From IMG/VR virus record IMGVR_UViG_3300010397_000076, positions 1 to 31,343 of that record: a stretch of DNA of 31,343 nt; one strand, written 5' to 3'. Position 1 is the first letter of the stretch; every line of letters begins with the position of its first letter. Made by a program: the position numbers and the translations under genes. The notes under the pieces are model-generated. The model made no database searches. It had not been told where the DNA came from and saw only the letters and a program-made list of their open reading frames with translations. Source of the stretch: a virus. Positions 2,843-17,820 of this stretch are shown piece after piece.

Positions 2843-3378
2843 GCGCCTCTGCTTGGACCGAAGGCGGGGCCACCTTCTCGCCCGACCACGTCTACCGCCA
2901 CCACCTGTGGCGCGCCCGGCCCGCGGAGCTGATCCCCGGCCCGCGGCGCCGACTGTTCGCCTGCATGCTCAACCCGTCCGACGCCGGGGCGGATCCGATC
3001 CGCGAGAACGACCCGACGATCCGCAAGTGGATGGGCTTCTGCGAGCGATGGAAGTTCTCCCGCTTCGACGTCTGCAATCTCTCCGACTTCTGCGCGACCA
3101 AGCCCGCCGAACTCTACGCCGCCGACTTTCCGATTAGTCCGTATTGTGACAGCTACATCACTGCGTGCGCCGCCCGGGCTGACCTGGCAGTGGTCGCATG
3201 GGGCGGTCTCGCAAAGAAGATCGCCCGCGCGCGAGCTGCCCGCGTCCTCGAGATCATCCGCGCCGCTCGCCCCGGAAAGCCGATCCACTGCATCCGCCGG
3301 GGCAAGGGCGGAATTCCCGTTCACCCGGTGATGGAGGGCTACACGATGGCCCCTGACGTGTTCGAGGAGGCGCCGTGA
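2839..3378 (+). CDS. DUF1643 family protein
   Basis: A 179-residue protein with a GTG start in a GTGA overlap. DUF1643 features are visible: a start region matching a host-type RYHLWRARP segment, LFACMLNPSDAGAD at about residues 39-52, NDPTIRKWMGFCERWKF at about 57-73, the DVCNLSDFCATKPAEL strand, and a late VVAWGG segment. The family is widespread in phages and bacteria as a single-domain protein with no established biochemical role; I know of no experiment that settles it. The length fits the family. The neighbours are zinc-binding small proteins. Confidence 0.8.
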   Translation: MSASAWTEGGATFSPDHVYRHHLWRARPAELIPGPRRRLFACMLNPSDAGADPIRENDPTIRKWMGFCERWKFSRFDVCNLSDFCATKPAELYAADFPISPYCDSYITACAARADLAVVAWGGLAKKIARARAARVLEIIRAARPGKPIHCIRRGKGGIPVHPVMEGYTMAPDVFEEAP

Positions 3379-3566
3379 CGTTGCCGACCTTCATCCCCCG
3401 ACTCGACCCCGACGACCGCCCCAAGTCCACCAAGGCGGTCAAGCACTCGCTCTGCTCTGCGTGCGGGAAGCTGGACATCGTCGATGAGGCAAGCGGGTGC
3501 TGCCGTCGCTGCTGGCGGATCGTGACCCTGATGCCGGCGGTGCTGGAGGGGCAGCGTCGTGAGTGA
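3375..3566 (+). CDS. small zinc-finger-like protein
   Basis: A 63-residue protein with a GTG start overlapping the previous stop by four bases (GTGA). The motif CSACGKLDIVDEASGCCRRC at about residues 27-46 gives a classical C-x2-C...C-x2-C zinc ribbon. The rest is a short N-terminal Pro/Asp segment and a C-terminal hydrophobic helix. It may act as an adaptor or nucleic-acid binder. No family is assigned. Confidence 0.55.
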   Translation: MTLPTFIPRLDPDDRPKSTKAVKHSLCSACGKLDIVDEASGCCRRCWRIVTLMPAVLEGQRRE

Positions 3567-4575
3567 GCGCAAGGAGCTGCTGCGCAATAGGCGCGAGGCA
3601 AGGAAAGAACTGAACCGCATGCGCGGCCGTCTGTCGCTGCTCAATCAGGACTTGGACAAGAGCCGCAAGGAGCTTTACGCGCTGTATGGGGTTACCCGGG
3701 ATCGCGCGACCGTCGCGGACATCGAACTGTCTATGATGCTGGCTGCCGACTACTCGCGGATCACGAAGAGTCACGACTTCATGACCGATCTCGATCTGGA
3801 ATACCTGACGTCGTCTCTTCCGTGGGCACAGCGCTGGAAGGAATCGTCATTCGCGAAGGTGGCGTGCGGGCGAGGGTTCGCATCGGCGTTGATGCTCACA
3901 GACGCGCCCGAAGATGCTGACGTGGCGGCCCCGTGGGGAGCGTGGAGCCTGATAGTTCCGCCCGGGACCCTGGCCATGAAGCTCTCCGCGGAGTCCCTCA
4001 AGCGAGGGATCGCCTCGATGGTCGATAACGTCATAGACATCAACCTGCTACCCGGGGACATGATTCATGACTTGCCAGTGGCCAGGATCCTTTGCGATGG
4101 CGCTTCGATTTCGGGACTAATAACCGGATCGCCAAGCGGCCAATACTTCCCAATGACGGTGTCGACTCACGGAGAGCCGGACACCATGGGAGCGATGGCG
4201 CGCAACTATGTCCGCGGTGTCTGCCTGTCGCTTGACTCCGATATCGAGAAGCACCGGGGCGTGGACTGGGGCCGCTGCAAGACGCCCGGCAACAATCGAA
4301 GCGGTGCCCCACGAGAGGGCGTGAGCTACGTGATCGGCAAGTCGGTGGCCATCGACCTTTCGCACGAGGTCAACCGGCTATGCCTCTCTCGCGGCGGACC
4401 GAGGCCGCCGTCCGTGCAGTTTCTCGTGCGCGGCCACTGGCGGAATCAGTCCCACGGCAAGGGCCGTGCTCTGCGCCGCCGGCAGTGGATCGAGCCATTC
4501 TGGAAGGGACCAGAGGAGTCGCGGGTGCTTCTGCGGACGCACGTCATTAAGAACCAACCGGGGGACCGGCCATGA
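3559..4575 (+). CDS. unclassified phage protein with N-terminal coiled coil and conserved WRNQ C-terminus
   Basis: A 338-residue protein with a GTG start overlapping the upstream gene by eight bases. Residues 1-45 are charged and heptad-like (RKELLRNRREARKELNRM), so probably a coiled coil. The middle contains beta-rich segments (GAWSLIVPPGTLAM, VARILCDG) and a CLSLDSD strand. The C-terminal 60 residues read VQFLVRGHWRNQSHGKGR, then LRRRQWIEPFWKGPE and VIKNQPGD. I recall similar VRGHWR-x-Q plus IW-I-x-P-F endings in phage and actinobacterial plasmid proteins of unknown function. No catalytic motif is identified. It overlaps the DnaA-IV-like gene by ATGA. Confidence 0.7.
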   Translation: MSERKELLRNRREARKELNRMRGRLSLLNQDLDKSRKELYALYGVTRDRATVADIELSMMLAADYSRITKSHDFMTDLDLEYLTSSLPWAQRWKESSFAKVACGRGFASALMLTDAPEDADVAAPWGAWSLIVPPGTLAMKLSAESLKRGIASMVDNVIDINLLPGDMIHDLPVARILCDGASISGLITGSPSGQYFPMTVSTHGEPDTMGAMARNYVRGVCLSLDSDIEKHRGVDWGRCKTPGNNRSGAPREGVSYVIGKSVAIDLSHEVNRLCLSRGGPRPPSVQFLVRGHWRNQSHGKGRALRRRQWIEPFWKGPEESRVLLRTHVIKNQPGDRP

Positions 4576-13916: not shown

Positions 13917-14039
13917 ATGTCCTGGTTGGACTTCATGGCCGTCGTCGCAGTCGGGTTCGTGCCCGGATTGCTGTACGGCTTCGTTCTTGGTTTCCGTGCC
14001 GCCAGCACGGCCCCTACGACAGGAGGGCGGGAGCCTTGA
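13917..14039 (+). CDS. very small membrane protein upstream of the methyltransferase
   Basis: A 40-residue ORF, MSWLDFMAVVAVGFVPGLLY and on, with one hydrophobic segment at about residues 6-27. ATG 13917 has GGAGGG six bases upstream. Its stop overlaps the TTG start of the methyltransferase gene (TTGA), which supports coding. No signal or catalytic residues are visible, and the role is unknown. Confidence 0.5.
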   Translation: MSWLDFMAVVAVGFVPGLLYGFVLGFRAASTAPTTGGREP

Positions 14040-14866
14040 CCATCGGTTCTCTATTCAGCGGGATCGGCGGCCTCGAAATCGCCCTCGAGTCTTGCGGCCT
14101 CGGTCCGGTCGTGTGGCAGTGCGACTCCGACCCGCACGCCCGCGCTGTGCTTGCGACCCACTGGCCGAACGTTCGCCGCTACAACGACGTGAGGGAGATT
14201 GATGAAACCGCCGAGTGCCCCGACATCATCTGCGGCGGCTTCCCGTGCCAAAATATCTCAAACGCAGGAAAGAGAGAGGGAATCAGCGGGCCTCAGTCCG
14301 GGCTCTGGTCCGAGTTCGCTCGGATCATTCGCGTTCTACGACCGCGCGTCGTCTTCGTGGAGAACGTCGCAGCCCTCGCTGCTCGGGGACTTGACCGAGT
14401 TCTCGGGGACCTGGCCACTCTCGGGTTCGATGCGGAATGGGATGTGCTCAGAGCGGCTGACGTCGGCGCGCCCCATCTCCGTGCACGCCTATTCATCCTT
14501 GCCCACGCCGACGGCTTCAACAAGTGGCTACAACCGTGGCGGGGGAATGGGTCGCGTTGGTCCCATCAGACCGTCGCTCCGCATGATGGCGCGGACCGGG
14601 ATGTGGCCCACTCCGACGGCATCGGAGAACGCGAACAGAACGACAAAGCCGCGGCCGAGCGAGACGGACGGACGTGGTCACGGAGCGACGCTTGCGGGCG
14701 CGGTTGGTGGGCAGCTGAACCCGACGTGGGTCGAGTGGCTCATGGGGTTCCCGATCGAGCACACCGCCTGCGACTTCTCGGCAATTCCGTCGTCCCGCAA
14801 CAAGCGGCGCACGCCTGGCTGACGCTCAGCGCACGGGCTTCTCGGTCCCAAACGGAGGCCGCATGA
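14036..14866 (+). CDS. DNA (cytosine-5) methyltransferase
   Basis: A 276-residue protein; TTG 14036 overlaps the previous stop, with AGGAGGG upstream. C5-MTase motifs run in order: motif I LFSGIGGLE (6-14, AdoMet binding), motif IV GGFPCQNIS with catalytic C71, motif VI FVENVAAL with E109, motif VIII LRARLFILAHAD, and motif X LGNSVVPQ (248-255). The region between VIII and X, about 90 residues, is the target-recognition part. It methylates cytosine in a DNA site I cannot predict. No cognate restriction gene is seen, so it is an orphan, likely protecting phage DNA. A second plausible protein is encoded in the +1 frame of the same bases. Confidence 0.92.
   Translation: MTIGSLFSGIGGLEIALESCGLGPVVWQCDSDPHARAVLATHWPNVRRYNDVREIDETAECPDIICGGFPCQNISNAGKREGISGPQSGLWSEFARIIRVLRPRVVFVENVAALAARGLDRVLGDLATLGFDAEWDVLRAADVGAPHLRARLFILAHADGFNKWLQPWRGNGSRWSHQTVAPHDGADRDVAHSDGIGEREQNDKAAAERDGRTWSRSDACGRGWWAAEPDVGRVAHGVPDRAHRLRLLGNSVVPQQAAHAWLTLSARASRSQTEAA
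14202..14822 (+). CDS. candidate overlapping gene in the +1 frame of the methyltransferase ('WPTPTA'-type phage protein)
   Basis: A 206-codon frame, ATG 14202 with GAGGGAG five bases upstream, wholly inside the methyltransferase gene. It reads ASRAKISQTQ, SSSWRTSQPSLLGDL, FSGTWPLSGSMRNG, SSLPTPTAS, MWPTPTASENANR, then LNPTWVEWLMGFPIEHT and AIPSSR. This order of motifs is one I know from phage proteins annotated as DNA methylase or hypothetical. Each piece is the frame-shifted reading of a methyltransferase motif (WPTPTAS mirrors VAHSDGI; FSGTWP mirrors LGDLAT). It may be a real overprinted gene, or that 'family' may be partly a shadow of methyltransferase genes. Only conservation or expression data can tell. 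Confidence 0.4.
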   Translation: MKPPSAPTSSAAASRAKISQTQERERESAGLSPGSGPSSLGSFAFYDRASSSWRTSQPSLLGDLTEFSGTWPLSGSMRNGMCSERLTSARPISVHAYSSLPTPTASTSGYNRGGGMGRVGPIRPSLRMMARTGMWPTPTASENANRTTKPRPSETDGRGHGATLAGAVGGQLNPTWVEWLMGFPIEHTACDFSAIPSSRNKRRTPG

Positions 14867-17186: not shown

Positions 17187-17332
17187 ACGACATCCAGCGC
17201 CGTCGCTCCATCACCGGCCCCGCCCGCAACCCTTCACCCTCCCCCGCCTCCCTCCTCCTCGCTGCCCTGGGGATTGGGGCTGTGGTGGGGGTGGCGTGGG
17301 CGGTGGCGATGGGGATGGGGTTTTTCGGGTGA
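17183..17332 (+). CDS. very small single-span membrane protein
   Basis: A 49-residue ORF, GTG 17183 to TGA 17330-17332, chained by GTGA overlaps at both ends. Residues 22-47 are a glycine- and alanine-rich hydrophobic helix (LLLAALGIGAVVGVAWAVAM), preceded by a basic, Pro/Ser-rich N-terminus, so N-in topology is likely. Its 3' half is made of G-runs ending in TTTTT. Function unknown. Confidence 0.45.
   Translation: MNDIQRRRSITGPARNPSPSPASLLLAALGIGAVVGVAWAVAMGMGFFG
17269..17325 (+). other. G-quadruplex-capable tract followed by T5
   Basis: GGGG at 17269-17272 and 17276-17279, GGGGG at 17287-17291, GGG at 17298-17300, GGGG at 17311-17314 and 17317-17320, then TTTTT at 17321-17325. A C-rich stretch lies at 17237-17260. 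The layout repeats that at 8499-8529: C-rich tract, G-runs, T-run, in a coding sequence. Confidence 0.4.
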
Positions 17333-17820
17333 CGCGCAAGATGCCAAAGCAGAAGCCCGGCAAGTCCGAGCAGGTTGTCGGAACTCCGCGCGAGTTCCTG
17401 GATGCGGTCGTGCGCCGGTTCGGCCCGATCGGTCACGACCTCGCCGCGACCCGTGAGAACTCGGTCATCCCGAGCGATGGCGATGATCATTTCGGACCGG
17501 GAAGTCGCCTCGCTACCGATTCTCTGCTCGCCGATTGGACCGCGCTGTCGAGTGACTTGCTCTGGTTGAACCCGCCGTTCCGCAAGATCGGACCGTGGGC
17601 CAAAAAGTGCGCCCTGCACCGCGACGAGAAGATCGCGCTGCTCGTGCCTCTGTCGACATCCTCCTGGGCCGTTAACTACGTGTTCCCGTTCGCGCGTGTT
17701 CTGGGTCTGTTCCCGCGGCTGGTCTTCGAAGGGCACGAGACGAGCTACCCGAAAGACGCCATGCTCGCGATCTACGGCAGTGGGTGGGCGCCAGGGTTCG
17801 AGGTGTGGAAGTGGAAGTGA
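17329..17820 (+). CDS. phage DNA N6-adenine methyltransferase (Dam family, PF05869-like)
   Basis: A 163-residue protein, GTG start in a GTGA overlap. The family outline is visible: VVGTPREFLDAVVRRFGPIG at about 16-35, DLAAT at 37-41, WLNPPFRKIGPWAKKC with the catalytic NPPF at 81-84, LLVPLSTSSWAV at about 105-116, and a late RLVFEGHETSYPKDAM strand. The NPPF box is the adenine-N6 class active site. The length matches phage-type Dam proteins (150-180 residues). Its target may be GATC, but this is not readable from sequence. No cognate nuclease is visible. Confidence 0.85.
   Translation: MTRKMPKQKPGKSEQVVGTPREFLDAVVRRFGPIGHDLAATRENSVIPSDGDDHFGPGSRLATDSLLADWTALSSDLLWLNPPFRKIGPWAKKCALHRDEKIALLVPLSTSSWAVNYVFPFARVLGLFPRLVFEGHETSYPKDAMLAIYGSGWAPGFEVWKWK

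Follow-up and report, generated by a model that had tools for sequence, protein, structure and literature searches.

The question raised by this locus is whether the +1 frame of a phage C5 cytosine methyltransferase gene encodes a protein of its own and, if so, what that protein is. The window, a stretch of 31,343 nucleotides that covers positions 1 to 31,343 of IMG/VR record IMGVR_UViG_3300010397_000076, carries the methyltransferase in frame 0 (hereafter α) and, nested entirely inside it, a second open frame (hereafter β), an arrangement that is conserved in relatives (Table 1). A sequence-only reading had drawn attention to this second frame, and its description is borne out: β is open for 206 codons behind its own ATG and GAGGGAG, contains the series SSSWRTSQ, FSGTWPLSGSMRNG, LPTPTAS, WPTPTAS and LNPTWVEWLMGFP, and mirrors parts of α, with WPTPTAS over VAHSDGI, NPTWVEWLMGFP over EPDVGRVAHGVP and AIPSSR over GNSVVP. 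Two outcomes had been proposed, i.e., a conserved gene overprinted on most of the methyltransferase, or a family of database proteins that are shadows of such genes, with the caveat that conservation in one frame forces resemblance in the other.

Table 1. Features of the methyltransferase locus in the window; the subunit and domain roles given for β are proposed ones.
Feature	Position	Strand	Remarks
α subunit: frame-0 C5 cytosine methyltransferase, TTG start, 276 aa	14036-14866	+	
α ribosome-binding site AGGAGGG	14021-14027	+	8 nt 5' of TTG 14036; from the sequence
β subunit (proposed): +1 frame ORF, ATG start, 206 aa	14202-14822	+	
β ribosome-binding site GAGGGAG	14191-14197	+	within the α gene, 4 nt 5' of ATG 14202
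α motif IV PCQ	14243-14251	+	catalytic cysteine codon 14246-14248; invariant in alignment A3
β N-terminal conserved zone YDRASSSWRTSQ...SGTWPLSGSMRNG	14337-14441	+	double-coded with α from motif VI to before motif VIII; constraint peaks at α residues 98-133
α motif VIII GAPHLRAR	14465-14488	+	translation, alignment A3
β putative recognition domain, two units	14493-14699	+	reverse scan; homology to single-chain enzymes
β recognition unit LPTPTAS	14499-14519	+	
β recognition unit WPTPTAS	14604-14624	+	
β motif IX LNPTWVEWLMGFP	14715-14753	+	identical bases read EPDVGRVAHGVP in α
α motif X LGNSVVP	14777-14797	+	translation; G, V and P invariant in alignment A3

The α frame does not contain the complete single-chain PF00145 layout, in which motifs I-X and the recognition domain reside on one chain. 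Its match to PF00145 (E 2.1e-40) is confined to residues 1-164, corresponding to profile positions 1-168 of 324; a match to phrog_363 spans its full length. In a profile comparison with M.HhaI the match covers 13-178 (E 3e-35) and is followed by a weak match at about 296-318, the region of motif X (-1.4 bits), while residues 179-295 of M.HhaI, comprising the recognition domain and motif IX, have no frame-0 counterpart in α. Motifs I-VIII are thus detected by profile and motif X (LGNSVVP) by eye and alignment; motif IX is absent. A motif IX is located on β instead, with P, E, M and G invariant across 103 β sequences.

In the window gene by itself the open +1 frame is unremarkable: 18% of its synonymous shuffles contain no +1 stop and the longest open run has a P of 0.22, so that the case depends on relatives. 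These were collected by two routes. A search with the +1 protein yielded at least 577 IMG/VR contigs encoding a +1 relative; against the bias of this route, genes were also selected from IMG/VR and GTDB genomes by alignment of the methyltransferase frame alone. As a null, synonymous codons were shuffled within each gene, which preserves the α protein and the codon usage, so that any shadow is reproduced by the null. The tested sequences being related, events are not independent, but observed and shuffled counts come from one and the same set of genes, with the third frame as a control. In 67 viral genes selected on frame 0, 32 +1 stops are observed against 219.8 (sd 10.7) expected, and 39 of the genes are free of +1 stops against 5.1 expected. 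The +2 control frame of these genes shows no stop avoidance (520 stops, 478 expected). The 40 cellular genes from GTDB genomes contain 16 +1 stops where 89.2 (sd 7.3) are expected. Of the 67 viral genes 61, and of the 40 cellular genes 26, have a motif-IX-like sequence in the +1 frame, against expectations of 0.03 and 0.01, respectively. Stop avoidance is present at all GC levels and is strongest in AT-rich genes, the observed and expected counts being 3 and 84.4 below 50% GC, 5 and 142.8 at 50-60%, 7 and 78.9 at 60-66%, and 10 and 21.4 above 66%. GC bias is ruled out as the source of the open frame, since avoidance is most pronounced in the class below 50% GC. The +1 frame of the methyltransferase gene is conserved coding sequence, independent of the α frame. 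The suggested check of related genes returned both +1 stop avoidance and +1 constraint, and the shuffle nulls in relatives support the first of the two proposed outcomes, that of the conserved overprinted gene.

The constraint is not evenly distributed over the two frames. A column scan of 107 genes, selected on frame 0 without any +1 filter (a version filtered by regular expressions is biased at motif IX), reveals excess +1 similarity from about α residue 98 to 250, corresponding to window positions of about 14327-14786. The excess peaks at α residues 98-109, 122-133, 185-196 and 228-247, and falls between one recognition unit and the next; similarity in the third frame is also raised, less strongly, because its nucleotides are shared with the other frames. 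Support is less clear for the N-terminal 43 residues of β, where the excess is weaker and is seen in the third frame as well. In the reverse scan, in which the β codons are shuffled, both frames are conserved over β residues 1-97 and again over residues 167-202. Over residues 106-162, which include the WPTP units, β alone is conserved, and the α frame across the putative recognition domain is open only, without conserved protein sequence. The N-terminal zone of β over motifs VI-VIII is truly double-coded. In the middle zone it is frame 0, and not the +1 frame, that lacks conservation and acts as filler. The ancestral methyltransferase sequence would seem to survive there, and in motif IX, in the +1 frame; frame 0 would have only to be kept free of stops as far as motif X. 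With the exception of the N-terminal zone of β, the origin of the overlap would be explained better by a frameshift, through which the gene was divided or put into another frame, than by de novo overprinting of a new protein. Represented by about 200 non-redundant genes of widely differing GC content, the locus offers a well-powered natural case of double coding, containing zones in which both frames are constrained and zones in which only one is.

The β frame has starts of its own. The nearest relatives (L005, L092-L095 and L337) keep the start site GTGAGGGA...ATG; in L314 the ATG is gone and a stop follows further on, and GGAGGTGAT precedes a downstream GTG. Across 194 overlapped genes, an ATG or GTG in the +1 frame follows a ribosome-site match of at least 5 bases in 66 cases, against 20.9 (sd 3.8) after shuffling, and a match of at least 4 bases in 122 cases against 66.8. 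This roughly threefold enrichment of starts with ribosome sites favours internal initiation. Programmed ribosomal frameshifting from α, which would produce a fused catalytic-recognition chain without internal initiation, is very unlikely as an explanation. The overlap of the two frames across most of the gene and the frame switches at unit boundaries in an actinophage class (see below) are in its favour, but it leaves unexplained the enriched starts and the conservation of β over motifs VI-VIII, which lies far upstream of any useful shift point and would not be needed for a shift after motif VIII. Moreover, no common slippery site was seen at the actinophage junction.

The identity of β follows from the segment that α lacks. 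In an hhalign comparison β aligns to the recognition and motif IX part of single-chain actinophage methyltransferases with a probability of 96.7 (E 3.5e-10), and α aligns to the N-terminal part alone of these enzymes, with its residues 1-168. A model of one such single-chain enzyme, L308 (pTM 0.73), superimposes on M.HhaI with a Z-score of 24.1 and an rmsd of 2.8 for 247 residues within 12-318, and includes a low-confidence stretch at 198-287. AlphaFold gives a poor model for β alone (pLDDT 64.7, pTM 0.34), which was left out of the fold search, and comparison of the β profile with PDB sequences gives only chance matches to glycolipid transfer protein. Because β is homologous to the segment missing from α, the +1 product is most likely the β subunit of a two-polypeptide C5 methyltransferase.

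That β is instead an independent protein, e.g., a regulator or an anti-defence protein, overprinted by chance and not part of the enzyme, has very little probability. Such a protein could account for the N-terminal zone (SSWRTSQ...MRNG), which has no known counterpart in other methyltransferases, and for the lack of a credible match to β in Pfam and NCBIfam. It does not explain why β carries the very motif IX that is missing from α, why it matches the recognition and motif IX part of complete enzymes, or why it overlies a C5 methyltransferase at all loci that were fetched with β. The notion of an overprinted gene therefore stands as far as conserved +1 coding is concerned, and fails in that β is not an unrelated protein but, most likely, the recognition and motif IX half of the same enzyme.

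A mechanical shadow, in which α conservation and GC-rich codons force an open, similar-looking and untranslated +1 frame, has a probability close to nil: the window gene's open frame is not rare by itself and some +1 similarity is forced at conserved α motifs (null of about 0.3-0.6 at motif regions), but the stop and motif IX counts lie far from this null, the avoidance is strongest in AT-rich genes, β is conserved where α is not, and sequence homologous to β occurs in frame 0 of other enzymes. The caveat about forced resemblance thus applies to some extent at the motif regions and falls far short of the similarity observed, and the proposal that the database proteins are shadows is refuted by the shuffle nulls and by the enzymes with homologous sequence in the frame of the catalytic domain. 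In profile comparisons, phrog_1008 ('DNA methyltransferase') is matched by all 107 β sequences (E 1.3e-27 for β of the window), phrog 26627 by 104 and phrog 27243 by 67, so that these three PHROG families may be taken to hold β-like phage proteins. The latter two are listed with unknown function, and none of the three has been described as an overlapping subunit.

We propose that a single stretch of DNA at this locus specifies two polypeptides that together form one C5 cytosine methyltransferase, a reading to which we assign a probability of about 0.86. The α chain would comprise the AdoMet-binding and catalytic domain with motifs I-VIII and the closing motif X, and β would comprise the N-terminal zone, the proline-rich WPTP recognition units and motif IX. 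Internal initiation at the ATG of β would yield two chains from one message, and β would bind α to give a single assembled enzyme, in which α supplies AdoMet binding, the catalytic cysteine and motif X, and β contributes motif IX and positions its recognition units on the DNA. By analogy with M.EcoHK31I, methylation would require both chains. The contig also encodes an integrase, an HNH endonuclease, an RNA-ligase-like protein, a DnaC-like loader, a second methyltransferase and the terminase large subunit, a gene content that points to a tailed phage of temperate type. Among the contig proteins scanned, which represent part of the ORFs, no restriction enzyme next to the methyltransferase was noticed; for this reason the enzyme is probably an orphan methyltransferase, with a protective or regulatory role in a phage of temperate type. 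The second methyltransferase-like protein (17296-17820) matches phrog_111 with an E of 1.2e-13.

Two-polypeptide C5 methyltransferases are already known from restriction-modification enzymology. The β chain of M.EcoHK31I is encoded within the α gene in a different frame, and the small chain of the window likewise lies in another frame inside the large-chain gene. According to PMC3404938, which cites Lee et al. 1995, M.EcoHK31I (YGGCCR) is a two-polypeptide enzyme with motifs I-VIII and X on the large chain, motif IX on the small chain and a predicted recognition domain on the large chain. In motif layout the window resembles it in that α has motifs I-VIII and X without IX and β carries IX, and differs in that the conserved candidate recognition zone lies on β. 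PMC3404938 also describes M.AquI (CYCGRG) as a split enzyme whose two chains are divided after motif VIII. Unlike the small chain of such an enzyme, with both IX and X, β of the window lacks motif X, which is found on α. The M.AquI layout is that of Mycobacterium phage Firecracker gp6/gp5, Gordonia phage Jumbo 35/36 and IMG/VR locus L134, all divided after motif VIII. In Firecracker the halves are separate, overlapping genes and in Jumbo separate genes, annotated in each phage as two methylases; L134 is also split, and in all three the second half also bears motif X. Text searches of open-access papers found nothing on these overlapping phage methyltransferase genes or on the β motif. The breadth of the arrangement among phages seems unrecognised, and its extent there and its absence from annotation appear to be unreported in the papers searched.

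Classification by regular expressions assigns 196 non-redundant loci to the overlapped layout of the window (IX in +1, X in frame 0), 3 to a split layout with both IX and X in the +1 frame and 18 to a single-frame layout, the remainder being unassigned or at contig ends; these counts mirror the queries used, not natural frequencies. Both motifs IX and X are on the small chain in L001, L002 and L134. Single-chain actinophage C5 methyltransferases contain LLPTP units, a motif such as RFSEWMQGWPLGWVT and motif X, all in frame 0. Mycobacterium phage Tweety gp72 and L308 thus share with the window a homologous catalytic domain, LLPTP units and motif IX, but have the units and motif IX in frame 0.

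This single-frame class also has a conserved upstream +1 ORF, which ends at the first frame-0 unit and contains no stops over motif VIII (codons -50 to +30) against about 18 expected. In L302-L312, L382-L398 and L087 this ORF keeps the β N-terminal zone and one to four LPTP units. In 22 of 24 genes the distance from the +1 stop to the first frame-0 LLPTP unit downstream is exactly 5 nt, a spacing seen at 1 of 59 later units, and the valine codon at the junction is GTA in 16 of 17 cases, as compared with 93 of 756 gene-wide. The identity of the stop varies among the actinophage genes. The codon before it also varies (GAG, CTG, CTC, CCG, GGG or ACC), which suggests that there is no classical slippery site. 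The +1 product seems to be translated in this class as well, and the junction might reflect frameshifting, coupled termination or two chains that share a recognition domain. More tentatively, and rather doubtfully as a whole, a large phage family may be two-chain by frame overlap, in which the units have changed frame, between +1 and 0, at their boundaries and the actinophage +1 part is still translated, being joined to or working with the frame-0 units across the conserved stop through frameshifting of an unusual kind, coupled termination or a two-chain recognition domain.

Beta matches in Enterobacteriaceae (L284-L292; 295 genomes searched) often come as two pieces that overlap but differ in frame, with a stop, and cover query residues 11-150 and 95-200, suggesting that a frame switch inside the recognition units may also occur outside actinophages. 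In Paenibacillus polymyxa plasmid pAP1 (L090, 1166-2656) the β frame has four TP units and, following two stops, a second copy of motif IX (the copies read NPTWVECLMGFP and NPAWVECLMGFP), which resembles a partial duplication of the recognition segment.

Annotation normally retains one frame per stretch of DNA, and the recognition subunit is therefore missing from most of the annotated records inspected, including those of Spikelee, a Leptospira plasmid, E. coli PT62 and vB_MoxS-R1. Where β is annotated, it is called 'hypothetical' or a second 'methylase'. If only the annotated gene is expressed or codon-optimised, the product would be expected to lack activity, and any target deduced from the annotated chain would be based on the wrong reading frame. 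In Microcystis phage Mwe-JY08 (L003, 392-652) the C-terminal part of β is annotated as a hypothetical protein and α is omitted. Compared with Spikelee (L085), Mycobacterium phage Llama (L086, 1001-1760) has a frameshift that breaks α into two annotated methylase genes, gp74 and gp75, and breaks β too; the two-gene annotation is repeated in several sister phages. The E. coli PT62 prophage (L400) contains two C5 methyltransferase genes within 3 kb, at 44-1030 and 3002-3739, the second of which has no annotated β.
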